Source: a virus. Taken from it: a stretch of DNA of 53,295 nucleotides. Of this stretch, positions 13,615 to 51,627 are shown piece after piece. Under the pieces are notes generated by a model that worked only from the letters and a program-made list of their open reading frames with translations, did no database searches and had not been told where the DNA came from. The stretch is from the IMG/VR virus record IMGVR_UViG_3300021085_000042, positions 1 through 53,295 of that record; one strand, written 5' to 3'. Both the position numbers and the translations under genes were made by a program. Position 1 is the first letter of the stretch; every line of letters starts with the position of its first letter.

Positions 13615-14073
13615 TTATTTTTTCTCCAAAACATTTTCATTCCCTTCGTGTATCTTTTTTGTGAAAGTCTTTGGGTAGCTGTACACGTGTTTTAATAATT
13701 CATGAACTTTCACATCTGCTTGCATGATATCTATATTTCCACCTACGTTTCGAGCGGCTAACCATCGATGATGTCCGTCAATGATATAGTTATCTTTACT
13801 CACAATCAGAGGTTTTGCTTGACCAAGAGTCTTGATCTTAGCGATTGCCCCTACAATCTTATCTTTGTTAAATTCTTTCTGAATAGGCTTTAAACTCTTA
13901 GCAGGAACCTTAGTCTTTTTCACAGCAACGTTGTTCTTCTTCAGATGCTTGATAAGTCCATCATAATCTTTCGATCTTACTTGAGGCATCTTGTCTCTTG
14001 TAAAACCTAGAGTATCTGTGGACTTAGGTTCATAGACCTTAAGTTCTGACACAAAGTTCCTAAACTTCTTCAT
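13615..14073 (-). CDS. ParB/sulfiredoxin-fold protein with capsid-targeting-like N-terminus
   Basis: 152 aa. The middle contains a ParB-type core: LGQAKPLIVSKDNYIIDGHHRW with the IDGHHRW motif, where ParB-like and sulfiredoxin-like enzymes bind nucleotide. Such domains act as DNA-binding CTPases, nucleases or kinases; catalytic type cannot be fixed here. The first eleven residues MKKFRNFVSEL fit the F-x-x-F-x-x-E leader shared with neighbours. Start overlaps the stop of the giant upstream gene as ATGA. The endolysin gene follows one base after its stop. Confidence 0.75.
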   Translation of the reverse strand: MKKFRNFVSELKVYEPKSTDTLGFTRDKMPQVRSKDYDGLIKHLKKNNVAVKKTKVPAKSLKPIQKEFNKDKIVGAIAKIKTLGQAKPLIVSKDNYIIDGHHRWLAARNVGGNIDIMQADVKVHELLKHVYSYPKTFTKKIHEGNENVLEKK

Positions 14074-17000
14074 ACCTTGATCACTTTACTAGATGTGCCA
14101 AAGTTCTTCTTACGCATGATAGTCTTGTTGACTACTTCGTATTCATCCTTTTCGCTATCATAGTTAATGACGATAGGTAAGTTCAAATCTGCTTGAATGT
14201 CCTTAAGCACTGCTTCGATGTCAGGATTTTGACGAATGTTCTTTGCTTTGTTCTTTGCAATCTTTTTGAATACTCGCTGAAGTTCTGCAATAGTGATAGC
14301 AGGCTTATTGCGATCATCGTTCATTCTGTCTGCAAAATGCTTAGTGAATTCTACGTCAATGCCAAACTTGTCGAGTAATCTATCTGCAAACCTTTCTAAG
14401 TCATTCAACTGCTTCTGAGTAACTTCTTCTTCGAAGTGTGCTTCAAATAGATCATCTACTGACTCAGTGACAGTCTCGCCAGGAGTATCTTTCTTGTAAC
14501 GCTTAGTAACTTTTTCAGTACCTCTATCACCAGCACCGCCCTGTTCGAATACATAATCACTAGGCACCATATCTGCTAATGTTCTGCCATCAACGCCTGC
14601 GTAACTTTTTGCGATTTGTGCGGCATAGTATCCTACGCCATGTCTAATCTTACCTTTTGACTCTTTCTTTTTTCTGTCGAGTACAGTGGTGAGAGTTTTT
14701 AATGCGTGTTGGTAGTTCTTTTTGTTAGTAATAGATCCTAACTTAGACCTGATAATGTCTTGTGTACTTCTCTCTGCAAAATGCTCTTCAAACATGAGGT
14801 CTTCAGTACTAGATTCTTCAAATGCCTCCCTTGCTACAATTCTCCAGCCTTGCTTCTTCATTCTATCAGCAGTAGCTCCATCGACTTTGCGTTGGTAAGG
14901 TCCTTTCTTAACTACATAGACTTCTGCGCCTTCATTCTTAGGCACACAGTTAGGCACTAGCTTACCGTTTTTCTTTTTCATGCCTCTTTGTTCGTGAGAG
15001 TCCCAGCATGGATCATCCTCTTTCAAAGACTTACCTTCGCTATCGTAACCAGGTTTACCAGCTTTCTCTTTCTTAGAGATAGCAATTGCGGCACGTTGTG
15101 CGGCTGAAACTGCGCCCTCTTCTAACTTGCCACCAGCATCTACGAATGCGGCAACAGCCATTTGTTGTTTCTTCTTATCAGACTTACCTGCAAACTGAGG
15201 AGCATCTGAGTTTTTGAAGTCATCAATCCAAGCTCCAAGTCCATCGGATACTTTTAACTTCTCTTCAATCTCTTCTTTCTTAGAACTACCACGAACTTTA
15301 GCGGCTAGGTCTGCGTCTGCTTTACCCCATGTGCCCGATGACTTAGTGATGAAAGAATTGACACGTGCAAAGCCCCATTGCTGTGGAGTAGTACCTGGTC
15401 TATGTCCAGTTCTCCAAGCGGCAATACCTCTGTTATAAACTTGACGTAAAATACCAAGTGGCATTCCAGACTTCTCTGCTTTCTTCTTTAATCCTTCATC
15501 GCCTTTTGCTTCATCTAATGTTACCTGATCAACAATGTCGTTTGTAGTCTCTTCGATGAATGCAATTAAATCTTTATCAGAGTGAAACTCTTCTTTGTTA
15601 ACTTGAGTGATCTTCTTACGTAACTCTCTAGTAAGCAATCCATCCATCTCACGCTCATGCTCTTTAGATAAGTTTTGTCTTTCGTCTTTGTGTTGTCTTT
15701 TAAGTCGCTTCTCTGCATCTGTATTGATAGTTATTTCAGCTATTTCGACTTCTTCTTTACGTTGTCTGAATGCACGAAAACGGCGGTCTAGTTTTATTTG
15801 ACCTTCTTTATTAAACATCTGATGATATCGTTTAGTGTGTGTAGATGTTTTTGTTTTTGCTTCTGCATCACCAGGTGCTGGTTTGTACGCATCTGGATTA
15901 TCATCATCCATCTTAGCGCCCTTCTTGAAATGTGCATCACGTTTTACTTTAGTAGACTTAGCAAGACCTTTATGATATACTGCTGGCTGTGTGCCTTTAC
16001 GATCAGCAATATCTTTGTCTTGACCTACAGTAGGCTCCTCAAACAAGTTAGAGAATTCTTCATTGATGATATAAGACTCAAACTCTTCGTTAGCACTTTT
16101 CTTGCCAGATAATTTAGCTAGGTCTGCTTTTCTAACCGAAGGTAGTAGCTTCTTAGCGATTCTATCAATAGCTGATTTTTTCTTTGCAACACGCTTATCG
16201 ATAAGCATCTTCTCAGAAGGAGATAGTGAAGCATAGTTCTCACCCTTCTTGCCTGCAACCTTTTTACGAATTACTTTGATGGCAGCCTTTCTAGCACGAA
16301 CTTTAAGTTTGTCCATAGTAGCGGCTTTCTTTGCCATACGTCTACGACCTTGAGCGATCTTAGACTTGAACTTACGCATGGTTATTGATCTCATGCGTCT
16401 TTGCTGAATAGTCAACGCTTCGTCAAGCTGTTCTGACATCTCTGCAATCTTCATGCCGCCACGTACCATATCGTATACGTCTTGTGCGTCACCTTGAAGT
16501 CTGCGAGGCAAACCAGTTTTGAATTTTTTGAAATCGCCCTGTGAGGCTGCGGCTCTCATCTTAGATGCAGACATACCAGAAACACCTTCGGAATCTGGGT
16601 CACGATCTCCAGCAGATACGATTTTAATGCTATCGAATCTATAGTCTTTGCCGTTATACTTATTTAAGAGTTCATCGAATTGTTTGATTCGATCTTGACC
16701 AACAACTAGAACTACTTTAGAAAAACTCTTCTGTAATTCTTGCATGATCTGAATGATAGTACGTGAATTAGATTTTACGATTATGTTACCAAATGCTTTC
16801 TTGGCAAGCATAATTTTGTCATCGTAATCTAGAGGATTCTTTTTAGCATCTTGACTATGAGAGACATAGACTAAAGGAGTTGCTCCTTCTTGCTTTGCAA
16901 CTGATTTAATTTTGTTGACTAGTTTTTCATGACCAACCGTGATTGGATTCATTCTACCCCAACCGAGAACGACTGTCTTGTTGGGAGCTTCTTCAAGTTT

Positions 17001-17150
17001 AGGATTGATCTCAATCGAATTCTTTACGAGAAGTTCGTCTTTTACTTTCTTCGAAGCCTTCTTTGACTTCTCTGTCTTATCCGTCTTCTTTTTAGAAGTC
17101 GTTTCTTCACCAGAGTTTGCCTCTGGATTATCCATAGAATCATCTTGCAT
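14070..17150 (-). CDS. Giant modular protein: nucleotidyltransferase domain plus basic and repeated modules
   Basis: 1026 aa. After a 57-residue Lys-rich lead, residues about 58-215 form a cytidylyltransferase/NMNAT-like domain: VVLGWGRMNPITVGHE (the TxGH version of HxGH), VVGQDRI, and SGMSASKMR at the second active-site motif. Next comes a very basic helical stretch (about 240-345, RRMAKKAATMDKLKVRARK), then modules with RTGHRPGTTPQQWGFARVNSF, DGLGAWIDDFKNSDAP, DPCWDSHEQRGMKKKNGK and a C-terminal part with EFTKHFADRMNDDRN. Acidic joints recur, e.g. NLFEEPT, MFEEHFAER, LFEAHFEEE. These resemble places where the gp21 protease could cut. First gene after the late promoter at 17207. Probably a packaged polyprotein, by inference. 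Confidence 0.7.
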   Translation of the reverse strand: MQDDSMDNPEANSGEETTSKKKTDKTEKSKKASKKVKDELLVKNSIEINPKLEEAPNKTVVLGWGRMNPITVGHEKLVNKIKSVAKQEGATPLVYVSHSQDAKKNPLDYDDKIMLAKKAFGNIIVKSNSRTIIQIMQELQKSFSKVVLVVGQDRIKQFDELLNKYNGKDYRFDSIKIVSAGDRDPDSEGVSGMSASKMRAAASQGDFKKFKTGLPRRLQGDAQDVYDMVRGGMKIAEMSEQLDEALTIQQRRMRSITMRKFKSKIAQGRRRMAKKAATMDKLKVRARKAAIKVIRKKVAGKKGENYASLSPSEKMLIDKRVAKKKSAIDRIAKKLLPSVRKADLAKLSGKKSANEEFESYIINEEFSNLFEEPTVGQDKDIADRKGTQPAVYHKGLAKSTKVKRDAHFKKGAKMDDDNPDAYKPAPGDAEAKTKTSTHTKRYHQMFNKEGQIKLDRRFRAFRQRKEEVEIAEITINTDAEKRLKRQHKDERQNLSKEHEREMDGLLTRELRKKITQVNKEEFHSDKDLIAFIEETTNDIVDQVTLDEAKGDEGLKKKAEKSGMPLGILRQVYNRGIAAWRTGHRPGTTPQQWGFARVNSFITKSSGTWGKADADLAAKVRGSSKKEEIEEKLKVSDGLGAWIDDFKNSDAPQFAGKSDKKKQQMAVAAFVDAGGKLEEGAVSAAQRAAIAISKKEKAGKPGYDSEGKSLKEDDPCWDSHEQRGMKKKNGKLVPNCVPKNEGAEVYVVKKGPYQRKVDGATADRMKKQGWRIVAREAFEESSTEDLMFEEHFAERSTQDIIRSKLGSITNKKNYQHALKTLTTVLDRKKKESKGKIRHGVGYYAAQIAKSYAGVDGRTLADMVPSDYVFEQGGAGDRGTEKVTKRYKKDTPGETVTESVDDLFEAHFEEEVTQKQLNDLERFADRLLDKFGIDVEFTKHFADRMNDDRNKPAITIAELQRVFKKIAKNKAKNIRQNPDIEAVLKDIQADLNLPIVINYDSEKDEYEVVNKTIMRKKNFGTSSKVIKV

Positions 17151-17206: not shown

Positions 17207-17214
17207 TATTTATA
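17207..17214 (-). promoter_or_regulatory. Late promoter TATAAATA
   Basis: Exact TATAAATA on the minus strand, 57 bases upstream of the 17150 start and just after the stop of the preceding gene. It should drive the giant protein, ParB-like, endolysin and following small genes. Confidence 0.75.
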
Positions 17215-18136: not shown

Positions 18137-18295
18137 CTATTTCTCTAGCATTAATCGTTTTGCTTCTTCGTGCATGCCCATCCGTGATAGTTCAGATGCG
18201 GCTCTTGCTCTACCGGCTGATTCGCCAATCGACCACATTGTGCCCCAAAAACCAGAAAGAGGTGCGAATGTAAATTTCAAAATTGCTTCAGCCAT
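18137..18295 (-). CDS. Small protein of the DUF1127-like cluster (52 aa)
   Basis: Reads MAEAILKFTFAPLSGFWGTMW, then GRARAASELSRMGMHEEAKRLM. The C-terminal half resembles the segment LRELGYYEKAREI of the next gene, suggesting duplication. The N-terminal half is moderately hydrophobic and may lie on the membrane. Start and the upstream stop overlap as TAATG (18293-18297). Too short for a confident family call; coupling on both sides makes a real gene likely. Confidence 0.55.
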   Translation of the reverse strand: MAEAILKFTFAPLSGFWGTMWSIGESAGRARAASELSRMGMHEEAKRLMLEK

Positions 18296-18537
18296 TATAC
18301 CCAACCTCGCAAGTTTGGATTATCTGATCTATCTGGAGAATATTCGCCAATTGATACTGAGTGAATTAGTCCTCTATGCAGACCAATGTCTGATAATTCT
18401 TTGTCTGTAAGTTTTGATAGTTGATTATAAGTTTCTCTATAAGTCTTGCGGTCTTCGAAGTATCTCACCACTTTATAGATGTAAGCGGATAAGAATGAGA
18501 AATCTAAAAATCGTACTGCGGCTAATACGTGTGCCAT
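18295..18537 (-). CDS. DUF1127 (YjiS-like) protein
   Basis: 80 aa. The motif YNQLSKLTDKELSDIGLHRGLI at residues 38-59 is the DUF1127 signature. The N-terminal 30 residues (LAAVRFLDFSFLSAYIYKVV) are hydrophobic and may be amphipathic. DUF1127 genes are common in alpha- and gammaproteobacteria, where some bind RNA and adjust phosphate or carbon metabolism. A phage copy may have come from a host. Behind AAAGG and the late promoter at 18591, first of three linked small genes. Confidence 0.75.
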   Translation of the reverse strand: MAHVLAAVRFLDFSFLSAYIYKVVRYFEDRKTYRETYNQLSKLTDKELSDIGLHRGLIHSVSIGEYSPDRSDNPNLRGWV

Positions 18538-18655: not shown

Positions 18656-19885
18656 TTACTTCTGCCAGCCCTTAATAAATTCGTCTGAGAAATTTGCTTT
18701 AGAAAATCCCATTCTATCTACAAGCTTAACTGCATTCTTACCCATCCTATCAATTGCAACAAAGCCTTCTTGTTCTGTGACTTTGTATCCATCTTTTGTT
18801 CTTAAGAACGTACCTATGGATTTTGCTTTATCCAGTTTAGTAATGATAAGTAGTTTTACTTCAACGATCATATTATACAATTCAAACAATGCAACAATCT
18901 GAGACTTATCGATATTTGAAAAGTATGACATTACATCTTTTCGTCTCTCTGTCTTACTAGCTTTGCCCTTTTCAGATTTCATCTTATCAATTTCTTTTTG
19001 GTAATACTCGTACATCCAGTCTACCATGTCAGTGACGAACTTAGAAGGATTTGCAATCTTTTCACCTGCACGTACTTTTACGTTCAGATATGTTTTAACT
19101 CTTGTAAGCAGTTCTTCGTTCTCTGTTATGCCATCAAACGTTGCTTTGTTTACTTTATTAAACTGTTTACCAGCGGCAGATAATAGTAGAGTAATTGCAT
19201 CTGTCTCTGTCTGTGTCATTGTGGCATTACCACTCACATCTTTATATACTGCGTCTACTGACCAGACCGATCTCGTGTCTTTGAGATTGCTTGCGATCTT
19301 CTCTCCAAAAGACGCTGACATTGATTCAAAAGATTTTCCTCTGTAGTTAGTGTGCCAAACCACACCGATCTCGGATCTGAGGATTTTAGTAGCAAGTGGG
19401 CTTTTCGCTGGTATAGCGTAAACAATCGTATTAGGATGAAAAGTAATATACGATTCACCATCAATCTGTACTTTCTTAATATCTTTCTTCGCATAGAGGA
19501 AATCACCTTGTATCACTCCTTTAATATTCATAGATGGCAGATGTTTCAGTGCCAAATTTAATTTAATATTCAAATCACCTTTTGTATCAGCATCAACATC
19601 CGCTTTAGTCTTATAGACCTTAGGGTTCTTATTGAAGATACCTTTCTTCGCAACGAAGAACTTACCATCAGAAGGATCAATACCTGCAAACACTGCTGGT
19701 GCTCCATCCCATTTGACAGTCACATTAACTGCGGAACGAGATTTACCTGCCAACATATCACGTAGAGATCGTAGATAGTTTATAGACTGTCTTGCTCCAT
19801 CAACGCCTGCATTTAGCAAGTTATCTTCGAGGTGCTCCATGTGAGTGTTTTTAGCTTCAGTTAAAAATGATGAAAGGCGTTGCAT
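18656..19885 (-). CDS. Ligase-fold nucleotidyltransferase-like protein with capsid-targeting-like N-terminus
   Basis: 409 aa from ATG 19885, behind GGAG and just after the upstream TAG. The enzyme core has the polynucleotide-ligase/capping superfamily motifs in order: VTVKWDGAPAVF (motif I, KxDG with the Lys that would be adenylylated), GVIQGDFLYAKKDI (motif III-like), EQEGFVAID (motif IV, EGxV) and KLVDR (motif V-like). Total length and other sequence differ from the true ligase at 29206. The leader MQRLSSFLTEAKNT fits the L/F-x-x-F-x-x-E-A capsid-targeting pattern. It may seal nicks or modify nucleic acid; substrate unknown. Confidence 0.7.
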   Translation of the reverse strand: MQRLSSFLTEAKNTHMEHLEDNLLNAGVDGARQSINYLRSLRDMLAGKSRSAVNVTVKWDGAPAVFAGIDPSDGKFFVAKKGIFNKNPKVYKTKADVDADTKGDLNIKLNLALKHLPSMNIKGVIQGDFLYAKKDIKKVQIDGESYITFHPNTIVYAIPAKSPLATKILRSEIGVVWHTNYRGKSFESMSASFGEKIASNLKDTRSVWSVDAVYKDVSGNATMTQTETDAITLLLSAAGKQFNKVNKATFDGITENEELLTRVKTYLNVKVRAGEKIANPSKFVTDMVDWMYEYYQKEIDKMKSEKGKASKTERRKDVMSYFSNIDKSQIVALFELYNMIVEVKLLIITKLDKAKSIGTFLRTKDGYKVTEQEGFVAIDRMGKNAVKLVDRMGFSKANFSDEFIKGWQK

Positions 19886-19886
19886 T

Positions 19887-20690
19887 CTATGCTCCAAATA
19901 ATTTCTTTACGTCTTCAGAATTATCGAGGCTATACTTAGACTTGATATTAGTCTTCAATCTGCCTTGACAACGATATCCAGCACCGACAACACGATAGTC
20001 TTCACCTTCAAATTTTCTTGCTTTACTTCCAGATGGTCCCAATCTGAATTCGATATTAACAGATCCTTTGTATTCTGGAACATCTAATTTTAAAGGATTG
20101 CTTCCTAGATAAAAAAGACCTGCTTTACCAATCTGAATGTAATATACGTTCTTTCGGTTATATGCTTTAGCGATTGTTTTCGCTGAGTCAAAAGACTGTA
20201 TCGCATTCATCTTAGTTAAGTAGCCAGCTTTCTGTGCCGCTGACCATGCGTCTTTAGTGACTGAACCGAAAGGTATCGTATATGGTGTTTTTTTGTGGAA
20301 TGCTACAGGCTCTTGCTTACGAATAAAGTTAACCCAATCTTTTAGTGCTTTGTCTTGTTTCTTTGCCGCTTCTATGAAAAATGGAATAGCGTCATCGTCT
20401 ACCGCATCGGGTTTGACTAAAGTGTGGGTCTTATTCTGAGTGTCTATTCTAATAGACGTACCGCCCATCTGAGCATTCTTATCTAATTTAATTTCGATAT
20501 TGAATTCTTTACCGTTGTATAATGCTTCAATATCACCTGCACCTTGATTACTGTATCCTGCACCTGGCTTACTGCCGACATCTAATCCAATCACACCAGC
20601 AGATTTCATTGCATCGAAGACCTTTTTTTCGTATGCTAGTCCTTTTGCACCGACTGATTCGGTAATGAAACTTTTAAATCTAACTGTCAT
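19887..20690 (-). CDS. PD-(D/E)XK-type nuclease-like protein with capsid-targeting-like N-terminus
   Basis: 267 aa. A nuclease core is visible around residues 40-75: GYSNQGAGDIEALYNG (Asp), then KEFNIEIKLDKNAQ with the E-x-K motif. The leader MTVRFKSFITESVGAKG matches the F-x-x-F-x-x-E pattern and would give cleavage after ITE. The C-terminal half is basic (GPSGSKARKFEGEDYR). Overlaps the upstream gene as ATGA and is followed at once by the ligase-fold gene, so a cut-and-join pair is possible. DNA target and activity are inferred. Confidence 0.65.
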   Translation of the reverse strand: MTVRFKSFITESVGAKGLAYEKKVFDAMKSAGVIGLDVGSKPGAGYSNQGAGDIEALYNGKEFNIEIKLDKNAQMGGTSIRIDTQNKTHTLVKPDAVDDDAIPFFIEAAKKQDKALKDWVNFIRKQEPVAFHKKTPYTIPFGSVTKDAWSAAQKAGYLTKMNAIQSFDSAKTIAKAYNRKNVYYIQIGKAGLFYLGSNPLKLDVPEYKGSVNIEFRLGPSGSKARKFEGEDYRVVGAGYRCQGRLKTNIKSKYSLDNSEDVKKLFGA

Positions 20691-21742
20691 TTTTTAACCT
20701 TGAATTTAGTATCGTTTGGGTATTCACCAGCTTTAGAATTTCTTAACTCAATTACATAGTCTTCAACAGTGTTACTACATAATATCGTAATCTGCTTAGA
20801 TTTTGTAGATGGATATCTTATATCATCAATTTTTATGTTTTGTGATAACTTATCCAATTTAGTTTTACCTAACCAGAAGACTTTCCACCCAGTTCTCATT
20901 CGCCTTACGTAGAAGTAATTCATACCCCACGCTCTGTTGAAAATCTTTTCGATTTCTCTTGCATTGGCTCTAGGTACTGCGAGTTTCGGTCTAACTTTAT
21001 TTATACTTCCTCGTTCATCAAAACCAGCTTGCACTTTATTCAGATCAACTCCAAATGTTTTGAGAAAGGTCGCTCCGGCAGAGTTTGGCTGAAGATTGCC
21101 TTCTCTATCAAACAAAGATGCGGCACCAGAATAAGAACTAAACGTATTACCGTTTATATCTTTGAGCGATATGTACCAAGGGTTTCCTTGATTATCAGTC
21201 AATATGATATCACCGATAATAGCACCAAGCTTGTCTATGGGTATGCCTTCTTTCTTGGTAGCACCAGTTCTTTGTACAGCACCAACGATTTCCGCATTGG
21301 CAAAGGGAGCGTGTGACTCACTCATCATGGTCACGACTTCAGAGGTTTCATTGTCTGTACGAGTTTTGAAATAGTTGTCTAATGTCTTGACAGTTCTTAC
21401 TTCAAACTTCTCGCCAGCATTCGCACCTCTCGCTATGATAATGTCAAACTTTAGACCGTCAAACGTGAAACTGTAACTAGGGAACTTAGAACTATTTGGA
21501 GATATGGAATTAAACGTTACACTCTCAAGGCTAGTATCTTTTCGCAACTGCATCTTCAGATGATCTATCAATTCCTTGCTAGTATCATTATCTTTATTGA
21601 TAAGTTGAAGCCTAAACTCCCGAACAGACTTGTCGTTTGTTCCTGGTTTGCCTTTTGGATAAAGAGGAGCAACCTGATAGTTCTTTATCTTTACGATAGA
21701 GTTCAGGTTCTCTCCAATTTTTTCGTATACTTCCATACTCAT
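20687..21742 (-). CDS. Nuclease-like protein, possible second PD-(D/E)XK-type fold
   Basis: 351 aa. The segment GAIIGDIILTDNQGNPWYISLKDINGNTF has an Asp followed 13 residues later by ISLK, a common degenerate form of the D...(D/E)-x-K core in phage nucleases; the missing Glu means activity is uncertain. The N-terminal half includes FTFDGLKFDIIIARGANAGEKFE. The C-terminal half contains MRTGWKVFWLGKTK and is basic. First gene after the late promoter CATAAATA at 21770, translationally linked to the next nuclease-like gene. Unlike its neighbours it has no clear capsid-targeting leader. Confidence 0.55.
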   Translation of the reverse strand: MSMEVYEKIGENLNSIVKIKNYQVAPLYPKGKPGTNDKSVREFRLQLINKDNDTSKELIDHLKMQLRKDTSLESVTFNSISPNSSKFPSYSFTFDGLKFDIIIARGANAGEKFEVRTVKTLDNYFKTRTDNETSEVVTMMSESHAPFANAEIVGAVQRTGATKKEGIPIDKLGAIIGDIILTDNQGNPWYISLKDINGNTFSSYSGAASLFDREGNLQPNSAGATFLKTFGVDLNKVQAGFDERGSINKVRPKLAVPRANAREIEKIFNRAWGMNYFYVRRMRTGWKVFWLGKTKLDKLSQNIKIDDIRYPSTKSKQITILCSNTVEDYVIELRNSKAGEYPNDTKFKVKK

Positions 21743-21769: not shown

Positions 21770-21777
21770 TATTTATG
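21770..21777 (-). promoter_or_regulatory. Late promoter CATAAATA
   Basis: CATAAATA on the minus strand, 28 bases before the 21742 start codon and six bases inside the gap after the preceding gene. It would transcribe the two nuclease-like genes and the ligase-fold gene. Confidence 0.6.
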
Positions 21778-29205: not shown

Positions 29206-30312
29206 TTAGTCGCTTCTTTCACCGAAGCCATAGTCGATAACCACAGGAAATCTTGGCACGCCATCAGGTGTAAGACCAAAATATCTTAGTGTAGCCCATG
29301 TTGGTGTATCACCAACTTCCCACAACTCTTTTAAGACTTCTTGCTTGCCTCTAACTCCAGCTCCACAAGTTGCTCCATTTGGCAGAGTAAGAGCAAAATG
29401 CTTTACATGGCCTGCCCAGTTGCCTTGACCTTCAAGCATAGAGACCACTTGAAATTCTTCAGTGATAAACTCTTTACGCTTTAAAAGGTTGTTACTTCTC
29501 TTGTTCTCGTAGGTTGTGTTGTTTCTTACCATCTGACCTTCATAGCCATCTGTCATGTAAGAACTGTAGAACTCATCAAGTTGTTCTTGTGTTTGTGCGA
29601 AGTCAGTTTGAACGATCTTTACAACATCACTCTTTGCTCCGTAAGCCAGTTTAATTCTGTTGATAAACAACATATCTTCTACGTAGCAATCGTACACGTG
29701 GTACTGAACAAGAGATGCAGACTCGGCAATGCTTTCGGGAGTCGCATTCAACTTTCTCACAAGACTGGTAATCTTGTTAAAGTCTTCTTTAAGTTCATGG
29801 TTGTATAGTTCGCCATCTAAGATGATACCAGGATTTGCTTCAATGAATGGCTTCACTGATTCCCAGATATGTGGACAACTCGTAATCTCTTTGCCTGCTC
29901 TAGTCCACAATCCAGATGAGTTTGCTATACATCTGATGCCGTCTAGTTTAGGTTGACTCCAGCCCTCTGATTGAGGACGTTTAGTGTAGTCACCTGCAAG
30001 CATAGGCTTAAACTTTTCGTAGGTGTCAATTAGCTTGATGTCAGAGAAGTATTCTTTCTCGGTCTTCTTATCCCAATTTGCTTGGGCTTCTGCTAAGGCT
30101 TGAGTGATATTGGTCGTTGCGTTGACCTTTCCAACGTTTTTTGGTGTGGATAGTTTCCATCCAGAGGTCACTAACTGACCCTCTTGTATGCCTGCAACTG
30201 ATCTAGTGCCAGCGGTGGTTTCATCATCATAACCATACTCAATGGTCAGAACTCTTACTTTACCTTTAGTATCACGCTTATAGAGCGTAGGTAGTGCGAT
30301 CACATTTTTCAT
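29206..30312 (-). CDS. 30: ATP-dependent DNA ligase
   Basis: 368 aa from ATG 30312, behind GGAGATAT. Seals nicks with ATP. Motif I SQPKLDGIRC (Lys that becomes adenylylated), motif III ILDGELYN, motif IV DGYEGQMV, motif V NLLKRKEF. A C-terminal OB-fold would follow motif V. T4 gp30 is 487 aa, so this is a shorter form. The frame is open 19 codons farther upstream, but that stretch is the early promoter itself, not coding sequence. Confidence 0.94.
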   Translation of the reverse strand: MKNVIALPTLYKRDTKGKVRVLTIEYGYDDETTAGTRSVAGIQEGQLVTSGWKLSTPKNVGKVNATTNITQALAEAQANWDKKTEKEYFSDIKLIDTYEKFKPMLAGDYTKRPQSEGWSQPKLDGIRCIANSSGLWTRAGKEITSCPHIWESVKPFIEANPGIILDGELYNHELKEDFNKITSLVRKLNATPESIAESASLVQYHVYDCYVEDMLFINRIKLAYGAKSDVVKIVQTDFAQTQEQLDEFYSSYMTDGYEGQMVRNNTTYENKRSNNLLKRKEFITEEFQVVSMLEGQGNWAGHVKHFALTLPNGATCGAGVRGKQEVLKELWEVGDTPTWATLRYFGLTPDGVPRFPVVIDYGFGERSD

Positions 30313-30336
30313 ATTATATCTCCAATTAGAACGTAC

Positions 30337-30365
30337 ATTATAACACGGCATAGACCAATTGTCAA
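30337..30365 (-). promoter_or_regulatory. Early sigma70 promoter for DNA ligase
   Basis: Minus strand: TTGACA (30360-30365), 17-base spacer, TATAAT (30337-30342). Full consensus. Predicted transcription start is near 30330, 18 bases before the ligase ATG. Confidence 0.85.
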
Positions 30366-30379
30366 GCATTATTTAAGTA

Positions 30380-50471: not shown

Positions 50472-51167
50472 TCATGTTTTTGACAATGAACTTACAAATT
50501 TTTCGAAAAGAGCGGCCGCCTTGATCTCTAGTTCCCTAGTAGATACTTTAGCAGTCTCTTTGATTTCCTCTTCAATCTGATCAAATGCATTTGCCATTGT
50601 CCACGAAGAAGATGCTACATCATAGATCCAGTCAACGCCTTCCATAACACCCTTAACGAATGCATCTGGAGCTGATGGATCTGCAACGATATCTCCGGCA
50701 GTAGCTAACATAAAGTCGCTCTGCACTTCCATAACGCCATCTTTATTCTGCTTAATAGAACCCATACCACGTGAAGAGATCCCTACGAGACCGCCCTCAT
50801 CAATAAGATTTTTAACAATCTTACCCATAGGAGTTTCCATTATCTTTGCTCTTCCAACAATGTTAGAGCCTTCTTTTTTTAAATCTGTAAACATGTGAGA
50901 CACACGATCTAGATTGATAGTAGGACCAGCAGGATGACCCAGTTCTCCGTATGCTCTATTTTTAGAAACATAAGATTCGTTGTAACGCTTAGTTTCTGCT
51001 TCTAAAATAGTAGCAGGATATAAACGTCCATTTCTGTTTTTGATATCACCTTGCATGATGATACCTTCAATGAAATAATTCTTTCCGGTCTTTTCGCCTT
51101 CTTCGTTTATAATATCTTCTTTGAGATACTGAACGTCTTCAACGATTTCTTTGATTAGTAATGTCAT
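50472..51167 (-). CDS. 21: Prohead maturation protease, gp21
   Basis: 231 aa (T4 gp21 is 212). Serine protease that cleaves head proteins, including gp22 and gp23 and any protein with a capsid-targeting leader, after short hydrophobic-x-Glu motifs. Catalytic His is H78 in GELGHPAG and Ser is in VGISSRGMG (S131/S132). N-terminal FIEGIIMQGDIKNRNGRLYP is the usual family start. It begins one base after the stop of the gp68-position gene. Confidence 0.93.
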   Translation of the reverse strand: MTLLIKEIVEDVQYLKEDIINEEGEKTGKNYFIEGIIMQGDIKNRNGRLYPATILEAETKRYNESYVSKNRAYGELGHPAGPTINLDRVSHMFTDLKKEGSNIVGRAKIMETPMGKIVKNLIDEGGLVGISSRGMGSIKQNKDGVMEVQSDFMLATAGDIVADPSAPDAFVKGVMEGVDWIYDVASSSWTMANAFDQIEEEIKETAKVSTRELEIKAAALFEKFVSSLSKT

Positions 51168-51168
51168 G

Positions 51169-51627
51169 TCACTTACCTGCCGTCATTGCAAATTGAACGA
51201 TCTGCATAAACTTTTTACTATCGTCTAGCATGCCTTCAACTTTCTTTTTATTAGATCCATTCAACTGCTTGTGCATTGAAAGAATCATTGATGCTGTGGT
51301 TAAGTCGACCTTTTGCTTTTTACCGTCTTTAAACTTAACTTGTCCAATTGACTTTCTTTTTACGATACTAGCTAAATCTTCAAGAACACCTTCAACAATG
51401 ACCTCTTCTTCAGCTTCAACGTCTTCGTAGACTTTCTTATCTTGACCTTCTTCACGATCAGCTTCACGCTTCTTTTTCTTCTTACCCTTGATCTCGCCAG
51501 AAAACTGATCATCTGGTGCGACAGGATGGTCACGCTTGTCAACGATATGTTTGTCTAAAAAATTCTGCTCATCTGGAGACTTTGGTTTATCTGTAGTCTC
51601 AGCAAGCATTTCCTTAAAGCTTTTCAT
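51169..51627 (-). CDS. Prohead core-like protein in gp68 position, capsid-targeting-like N-terminus
   Basis: 152 aa. Occupies the place of T4 gene 68 between 67 and 21. Starts MKSFKEMLAETTDKP, fitting the F-x-x-(F/M)-x-x-E leader with likely gp21 cleavage after LAE. Basic patch KGKKKKKREAD, acidic middle, and a C-terminal helical part (SMILSMHKQLNGSNKKK). Probably a minor scaffold or internal protein; direct similarity to T4 gp68 is not obvious, so the name is by position. Confidence 0.65.
   Translation of the reverse strand: MKSFKEMLAETTDKPKSPDEQNFLDKHIVDKRDHPVAPDDQFSGEIKGKKKKKREADREEGQDKKVYEDVEAEEEVIVEGVLEDLASIVKRKSIGQVKFKDGKKQKVDLTTASMILSMHKQLNGSNKKKVEGMLDDSKKFMQIVQFAMTAGK

Follow-up and report, generated by a model that had tools for sequence, protein, structure and literature searches.

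What is the function of a late phage operon in which two nuclease-like genes are joined to a gene for a ligase-fold protein? The question is raised by three adjacent genes, g1, g2 and g3, of a marine T4-like phage. Its 53,295-base virus record (IMGVR_UViG_3300021085_000042), which was analysed over its whole length and is called the window below, encodes the portal, prohead protease and major head protein at 48–53 kb. There is about an even chance that g1–g3 constitute a late-expressed effector module of a nuclease and a nucleic-acid ligase, which is packaged into the phage head and injected, and whose activities and targets we infer. Beyond what the first-pass annotation of this DNA had described, g3 is a member of a known and widespread protein family, g1 contains a second domain, and the nuclease slot is interchangeable across phages.

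The three genes are located at the coordinates that the first-pass annotation had given for them (Table 1), and the tight coupling it had described is also present: the TGA of g1 and the ATG of g2 overlap as ATGA, and a single base separates the TAG of g2 from the ATG of g3. The start codon of g3 is the ATG at 19885 and not the TTG at 19897 that was given by the open reading frame (ORF) tool. The late promoter reported at 21770 is an octamer of the T4 type. The octamer YATAAATA occurs 15 times in the window, whereas 7.2 copies are expected and only one of 100 shuffles reaches 15. Fourteen of the 15 copies are on the coding strand, and ten of these are positioned at most 120 base pairs (bp) upstream of an ORF start, including those of capsid genes. 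In related loci 25 of 38 g1 relatives have the octamer in the 90 bp upstream of them, as do 24 of 47 other genes preceding the g3 homologue, compared with 74 of 4000 random positions and two of 166 g3 starts. Since the octamer is present upstream of the partner genes and rare at g3 starts, the promoter serves the whole unit and not g3 alone. Phage records searched at near identity with positions 16–24 kb of the window gave no match.

Table 1. Coordinates of the g1–g3 operon, its sequence and structural elements, and two related genes of the window.
Feature	Coordinates	Strand	Description and basis
T4-type late promoter of operon, CATAAATA	21770..21777	-	28 bp upstream of g1
g1	20687..21742	-	351 residues, two-domain protein, no leader
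g1 residues 1-107, predicted pol-beta-type nucleotidyltransferase fold	21422..21742	-	Foldseek, VIA-align and invariant columns
g1 residues 108-351, predicted HinP1I-like restriction-endonuclease fold	20690..21421	-	match spans 81-351
g1 D178...S192-L193-K194, PD-(D/E)XK-type motif	21161..21211	-	invariant in 36 sequences
g2	19887..20690	-	267 residues, PD-(D/E)XK/Hjc-like nuclease candidate
g2 leader MTVRFKSFITE, residues 1-11, ends I-T-E	20658..20690	-	sequence
g2 D53...E66-I67-K68 motif	20487..20534	-	alignment and pattern count
g3	18656..19885	-	409 residues, DUF6267 (PF19782, phrog_455, T4-GC71), predicted RNA-ligase-fold protein
g3 leader MQRLSSFLTE, residues 1-10, ends L-T-E	19856..19885	-	sequence; low model confidence
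g3 motif I, K58-W-D-G-A-P	19697..19714	-	invariant K58, D60, G61
g3 residues 225-352, helical insertion between motifs III and IV	18830..19213	-	model; shortened or absent in compact relatives
g3 motifs IV (E373-G-F-V) and V (K387-L-V-D-R)	18725..18769	-	alignment of 59 relatives
Prohead protease (phrog_207), expected remover of leaders	50472..51167	-	PHROG match
Cytidylyltransferase-like protein (T4-GC190 type), CTP_transf_like and DUF5824	14070..17150	-	1026 residues; own late octamer at 17207, no leader

The sequence of g3 matches the Pfam profile DUF6267 with an E-value of 2.9e-111 and a score of 372.9 bits (cut-off 27). The match aligns residues 13–400 to profile positions 1–373 of 376, and the score beyond the curated cut-off across the whole domain identifies g3 as a member of DUF6267. 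Relatives are encoded in 465 of 50,697 phage records, nearly all of them cyanophages, and among the matches listed they are called hypothetical, carry a bare gene number, or are covered by a differently named neighbour. The KWDGAP sequence with motifs I, III, IV and V, for which g3 had originally been assigned to the ligase superfamily, is supported by conservation: residues K58, D60, G61, G127, D128, E373, G374, V376 and K387 do not vary in 59 sequences that reach down to 20% identity. Motifs III (G127-D128), IV (E373-G-x-V376) and V (K387) follow in this order, and motif V has one lysine, not KxK. Thus, g3 has the KxDG of motif I, the motif order and the predicted fold of the covalent nucleotidyltransferase superfamily of ligases and capping enzymes.

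Structure prediction, which had been suggested as a check of the ligase fold, returned a model that best matches RNA ligases. The AlphaFold model of g3 has a predicted local distance difference test score (pLDDT) of 90.8 and a predicted template modelling score (pTM) of 0.86. In the VIA-align comparison, RNA ligases occupy all of the top 16 rows by Z, with Z of 7.6–9.2 and 175–195 aligned residues; these include TbREL1 (8.6), Trl1 (7.9) and T4 Rnl2 (7.7), and T4 Rnl1 and human ligase 1 follow near a Z of 7 among rows that match helices only. Two results count against the assignment: the highest Z of 9.2, for the Naegleria ligase (184 aligned), only modestly exceeds the values that unrelated models reach, and the best ligase match by Foldseek alone has an E-value of 0.2. 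The assignment is made because the RNA-ligase matches form a coherent list and agree with the motifs, and g3 and its family are accordingly predicted to be RNA-ligase-fold proteins. Besides the nucleotidyltransferase fold and motifs I, III, IV and V shared with Naegleria Rnl, T4 Rnl1 and Rnl2, TbREL1 and Trl1, the g3 model differs from these enzymes in a helical insertion of about 130 residues between motifs III and IV, in the lack of a C-terminal domain past motif V, and in that its sequence has no detectable match in the PDB. Phmmer and profile searches of the PDB with g1 and g3 gave nothing convincing. The insertion is reduced or missing in compact relatives, such as those of S-RIM2 (894 bp for query residues 4–401) and S-CREM2 (gp87, 295 residues), the latter retaining all motifs as KIDG, QGDF, EGFV and IKLVDR. 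Only 22 residues remain past K387, which leaves no space for an OB domain, and the name DNA ligase is therefore not appropriate for g3. An ordinary ATP-dependent DNA ligase is encoded elsewhere in the phage, at 29206–30369 (PF01068, E 1.2e-11; phrog_114), which is the ligase noted earlier near 30.3 kb. Two further ideas about the family were rejected. DUF6267 is not taken as a cellular family, as the 37 loci from genome contigs, mostly metagenome bins and single cells, are read, short of proof, as phage contigs; and long DUF6267 forms are not a sign of another function but fusions to a cytidylyltransferase-like domain.

The gene upstream of DUF6267 varies. Among 169 loci with a g3 homologue, 166 have an ORF just upstream, and these ORFs form 24 BLAST clusters. 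For the definition of partner families, ORFs of at least 150 residues from the earlier and later loci and from four isolates were grouped into 23 families; the later round contributed 151 upstream ORFs, 82 of them in one GC419-type cluster and many others repeating earlier contigs. The nuclease pattern D-h-x(5-15)-h-[SE]-x-K is present in every member of 11 of the 23 families (F01, which contains g2; F02, which contains g1; F03, F04, F05, F07, F08, F10, F11, F13 and F21). These 11 families are not linked by BLAST, mostly carry leaders and lie behind a late promoter. As controls, the pattern was counted in S-CREM2 proteins (eight of 79), in proteins of the window (three of 33), among the remaining ORFs of the loci (21 of 266) and in shuffles (10%). 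Profile alignment with hhalign joins F03 to F16, F05 to F10, F04 to F13, and F08 to F21 at 84–98% probability, so that independent origins are fewer than families. The first pattern tried was too narrow, as it missed most members of two clusters that have the residues, with matches in seven of 64 sequences of the g2 cluster and one of 16 of the F03 cluster; two looser patterns preceded the final one, which was fixed before the later loci from genome contigs were examined. The count of 11 of 23 families is therefore partly post hoc, whereas that from the later loci is not: there, the pattern is present in 16 of 23 upstream ORFs of at least 150 residues, or 13 of 20 without three identical repeats. 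Of the 37 later loci, ten have only shorter upstream ORFs and four have none. Of the 49 GC419-type partners (F00) only 12 have the pattern, mostly at another place in the protein, and W[DN]PADI...ISLKK can be read by eye. Inspection by eye also identified a nuclease-like upstream partner in the isolates HTVC008M, Melnitz, DLP6 and P-HM2. In the cultured Methylophilales phage Melnitz this partner begins with the leader, and the DUF6267 protein shares 47.8% identity with g3. Judged by these sequences, DUF6267 appears to have an interchangeable nuclease-like partner. That the ligase-fold protein is constant while the nuclease is exchanged is the strongest hint that both act on one substrate, and it suggests that target specificity is under diversifying selection and end processing is not.

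The g1 protein is predicted to consist of two domains (pLDDT 88.2, pTM 0.66). No family could be assigned to it and it has no match in phage records; relatives are encoded in 84 IMG/VR stretches, of which 80 were kept. The N-terminal domain resembles nucleotidyltransferases of the polymerase-beta (pol-beta) type, namely terminal uridylyl- and poly(A)-polymerases and polymerases lambda and mu, with a Foldseek E-value of 5.4e-4 to TUT7 (5w0o) and a VIA-align Z of 9.9 to GLD-2 (6lbk; root-mean-square deviation (rmsd) 2.7, 88 aligned). Of the DxD and third aspartate of such enzymes, only the latter is kept, as D100: R41 and R44 are invariant on the strand that corresponds to the DxD, as positioned by the alignment range and TUT7 numbering. 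The arginines indicate that the domain is probably not an active transferase but a degenerate one with its catalytic DxD apparently replaced. Residues 81–351 align to HinP1I (2fkc_A) with a Z of 9.2 and an rmsd of 4.1 over 185 of 247 residues, so the D...ISLK protein that the earlier reading took for nuclease-like also has a nuclease fold in its model, and the motif residues are conserved (Table 1). The predicted fold and D...xK pair place g1 in the HinP1I branch of PD-(D/E)XK enzymes. HinP1I has Q-x-K where g1 has S-L-K, and g1 further differs from it in the N-terminal nucleotidyltransferase-type domain and in having no adjoining methyltransferase gene. The serine as the middle residue makes the catalytic chemistry of g1 uncertain. 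One g1 relative (L062:3904-5001; phrog_8438) has a capsid-type N-terminal leader, and the pol-beta-type domain may be replaced there.

The g2 protein is a nuclease candidate by its motif, with the look of the PD-(D/E)XK/Hjc type. It has relatives in 39 IMG/VR loci and a weak one in P-SSM2 (T4-GC188, 27.6% identity). Of the GDIE...EIK signature that had been read as nuclease-like, E66 and K68 are invariant in 13 sequences, as are Y20-E21 near the N-terminus, whereas D53 is not. The sole match in a PDB profile search is the Holliday junction resolvase 7bgs, a weak one (E 1.5) that aligns the Y-E helix and the E-x-K strand; g2 is longer than the resolvase and carries a leader. A Pfam search with the 13 g2 members gave noise only, and PADLOC and NCBIfam yielded no usable family.

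The capsid-targeting-like leaders that had been noticed on two of the three proteins are present on g2 and g3, and in the g3 model pLDDT is below 50 in residues 1–11 only. In the T4 internal protein IPIII the first 10 residues suffice, with residues 4 and 7 serving targeting and 8 and 10 processing (PMC9026906). For comparison, DUF6267 proteins were selected by a conserved body starting at residue 12 and not by the leader pattern, which avoids circularity. The resulting 87 proteins have 71 distinct 11-mers, all of which have F or L at position 4, L, I or M at 8, and E at 10, and 67 of which have F or Y at 7; positions 2, 3, 5, 6, 9 and 11 vary freely. The leaders of DUF6267 thus share the constrained positions 4, 7, 8 and 10 and the [LI]xE end with T4, and g2 has the same spacing shifted by one. 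Another 63 of 189 DUF6267 proteins begin directly at the conserved body, and the leader is therefore a detachable module. The leader pattern was also counted over 77 loci. It is present in 71 of 77 g3 homologues, 35 of 76 immediately upstream genes and 14 of 127 genes further upstream within 1.8 kb, but in none of 39 immediately downstream genes; among the remaining ORFs it marks 30 of 584, and among internal-ATG controls 27 of 3459. When otherwise unrelated upstream families are aligned by hhalign, the shared part is the first 10–12 residues. As a sequence feature, the likeness of the g2 and g3 leaders to T4 capsid-targeting sequences is strongly supported, and both leaders include a site of the prohead-protease type. 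Like the T4 internal head proteins IPI, IPII, IPIII and Alt, these proteins combine a ten-residue leader with the same determinants, a prohead protease gene and highly diverse cargo; the putative cargo here is nuclease-like and ligase-fold. The pattern occurs in four of 62 window genes. The two besides g2 and g3 are at 13615–14073 and 51169–51627 (minus strand); one is ParB-like by PHROG profiles and one adjoins the prohead protease.

The leader pattern was applied, after it had been fixed, to cyanophage S-CREM2, for which a virion proteome with coordinates has been published (PMC10665884). The pattern marks six of 218 genes: a S-adenosylmethionine (SAM) hydrolase, the small gp13, an APH-type kinase, a cytidylyltransferase and two undetected genes. 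The four named proteins were all detected by mass spectrometry and none is listed as structural. The pattern thus occurs in four of 28 non-structural virion proteins, none of 24 structural ones, and two of 166 undetected ones (Fisher p 0.004, first versus last). The detected proteins gp12, gp15 and gp136 have starts that are similar to the leader but imperfect. In gp12 (L357:7704-10313), a virion protein annotated as Cas9, the leader-like RFASFMAEA is about 18 residues in, and the annotated start may be wrong. Another detected protein of unknown function, gp156 (L358:26012-26725), contains GGNANYNYTPYSDIDLHLVV, a stretch resembling a pol-beta-type nucleotidyltransferase. The detection of the cytidylyltransferase matters because such a domain is fused to DUF6267 (L142:6056-7906, L166:6053-7828, L183:6066-8114 and an S-PM2 ORF), because a relative was found in S-SM1 virions (PMC3037559), and because a relative is encoded downstream of g3 in the window. 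The natural fusion links the ligase fold to a virion protein family.

In the proposed mechanism, g2 and g3 would attach to the prohead core through their leaders, the phage protease would cut after the leader glutamate, and the mature enzymes would be packaged and exit with the DNA into a new cell. The steps of late expression, docking, cleavage, packaging and injection are put forward because the T4 system works in this way. In the newly infected cell, the nuclease side may cleave host or rival DNA, and g3 may adenylylate itself on K58 and seal or otherwise treat nucleic-acid ends. Fusions of EcoRI and of staphylococcal nuclease are taken into T4 heads (PMC9026906), and packaged restriction enzymes of chloroviruses are thought to cut host DNA (PMC7019647). 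The chlorovirus enzymes resemble the module in being restriction-type nucleases that a virus encodes and that are proposed to arrive together with its genome; there, a methyltransferase adjoins the nuclease, whereas here the constant neighbour is a ligase-fold gene, and no common ancestry is claimed. A more specific and improbable version of the proposal, 'restriction-ligation', pairs a swappable nuclease with a ligase, both of them injected; the ligase would repair cuts and nicks in the genome of the phage itself, ligation taking the place of methylation. Fold searches were not used to claim the absence of any fold. A literature search of freely accessible main texts found DUF6267 in no paper, no description of a ligase fold combined with a leader and an interchangeable partner, and no paper on capsid leaders in cyanophages.

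Several observations weigh against the packaged-module proposal. No neighbouring protection gene would explain how the phage's own DNA survives. HinP1I recognizes GCGC, and avoidance of this site was considered and rejected, since the window has 51 copies against 60.7 expected, which is no depletion. The g1 protein has no leader, like 49 of 50 upstream ORFs of its cluster, and in P-HM2-type cyanophages a nuclease-like gene adjoins DUF6267 and neither has one. S-CREM2 gp87 has no leader and is not among the proteins detected in virions. In the later loci from genome contigs, seven of 23 upstream ORFs are without the nuclease motif, and some neighbours of DUF6267 are a HAD phosphatase, an HD hydrolase, a zeta-type kinase, ThyX or small proteins. 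Several of these neighbours carry a leader, and in some loci a nuclease-like gene is one step further upstream. In 29 loci whose neighbour is not nuclease-like, the position one gene further up was inspected; 26 of them have an ORF there, and it has the pattern in eight, at least three of which do not represent the motif as such (a kinase in L064, a match starting inside the leader in L110, and probably no nuclease in L347). The leaderless P-HM2-type pairs show that packaging is not the core of module function, and in some phages the pair may act outside the head and at a stage other than injection.

The leaderless pairs also bear on an unlikely but serious alternative, in which nuclease and ligase-fold protein are a late cytoplasmic repair or recombination pair that processes phage DNA or RNA before packaging, the leaders only docking some of the molecules on the prohead core during DNA filling. 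It would account for the persistence of such pairs in P-HM2-type phages beside gp41, MazG and UvsX, for g1 and its close relatives without a leader, and for UvsX and gp41 being nearby in several isolates; the late promoter, the T4-type leaders on g3 and many nuclease partners, and the presence of an ordinary ligase in the phage speak against it. The diversity of the slot could instead reflect invasion: free-standing nucleases of the homing type, which are common in T4-like phages, would have entered a site beside DUF6267, where many unlinked nuclease-like families are present, and the ligase-fold protein would have an unrelated function. However, the genes are often coupled by overlaps of 1–4 bases under a common late promoter, the accessory genes between nuclease and DUF6267 are also leader-tagged, and a capsid leader is not known to us from any homing nuclease, so that this explanation is rather doubtful.

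The resemblance of g3 to RNA ligases, its closest folds, raises the further idea of counter-defence, with g3 entering the cell upon injection to repair, by resealing, RNA that host nucleases of the anticodon type have cut; in some phages it would be assisted by a phosphatase or kinase that carries a leader. Such genes do adjoin DUF6267 in some loci, namely a leader-tagged HAD phosphatase (F06) or zeta/AAA_33 kinase (F14). The usual neighbour, however, is nuclease-like and not an end-healing enzyme, and the matches of the HAD and kinase genes are to broad families, with no specific match to polynucleotide kinase-phosphatase, which makes this role a long shot.

Two further observations were made in the window. 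A DUF1127 gene with its own late octamer lies directly downstream of g3 (18295–18537, minus strand) and gives a hint to the host, since DUF1127 is typical of alphaproteobacteria. The whole window is depleted of GGCC (11 copies, 72 expected), CGCG (2, 46 expected) and AGATCT (0, 16 expected), a strong depletion of the kind that restriction pressure might produce.

Given the ligase fold, the leader and the exchanged partner, a gene that is unannotated in abundant marine phages can now be tested as a delivered-effector system. The module suggests a nucleic-acid weapon or a repair kit that is delivered with the phage genome. If packaging proves true, the leader pattern would also provide a way to list the injected proteins of marine T4-like phages.

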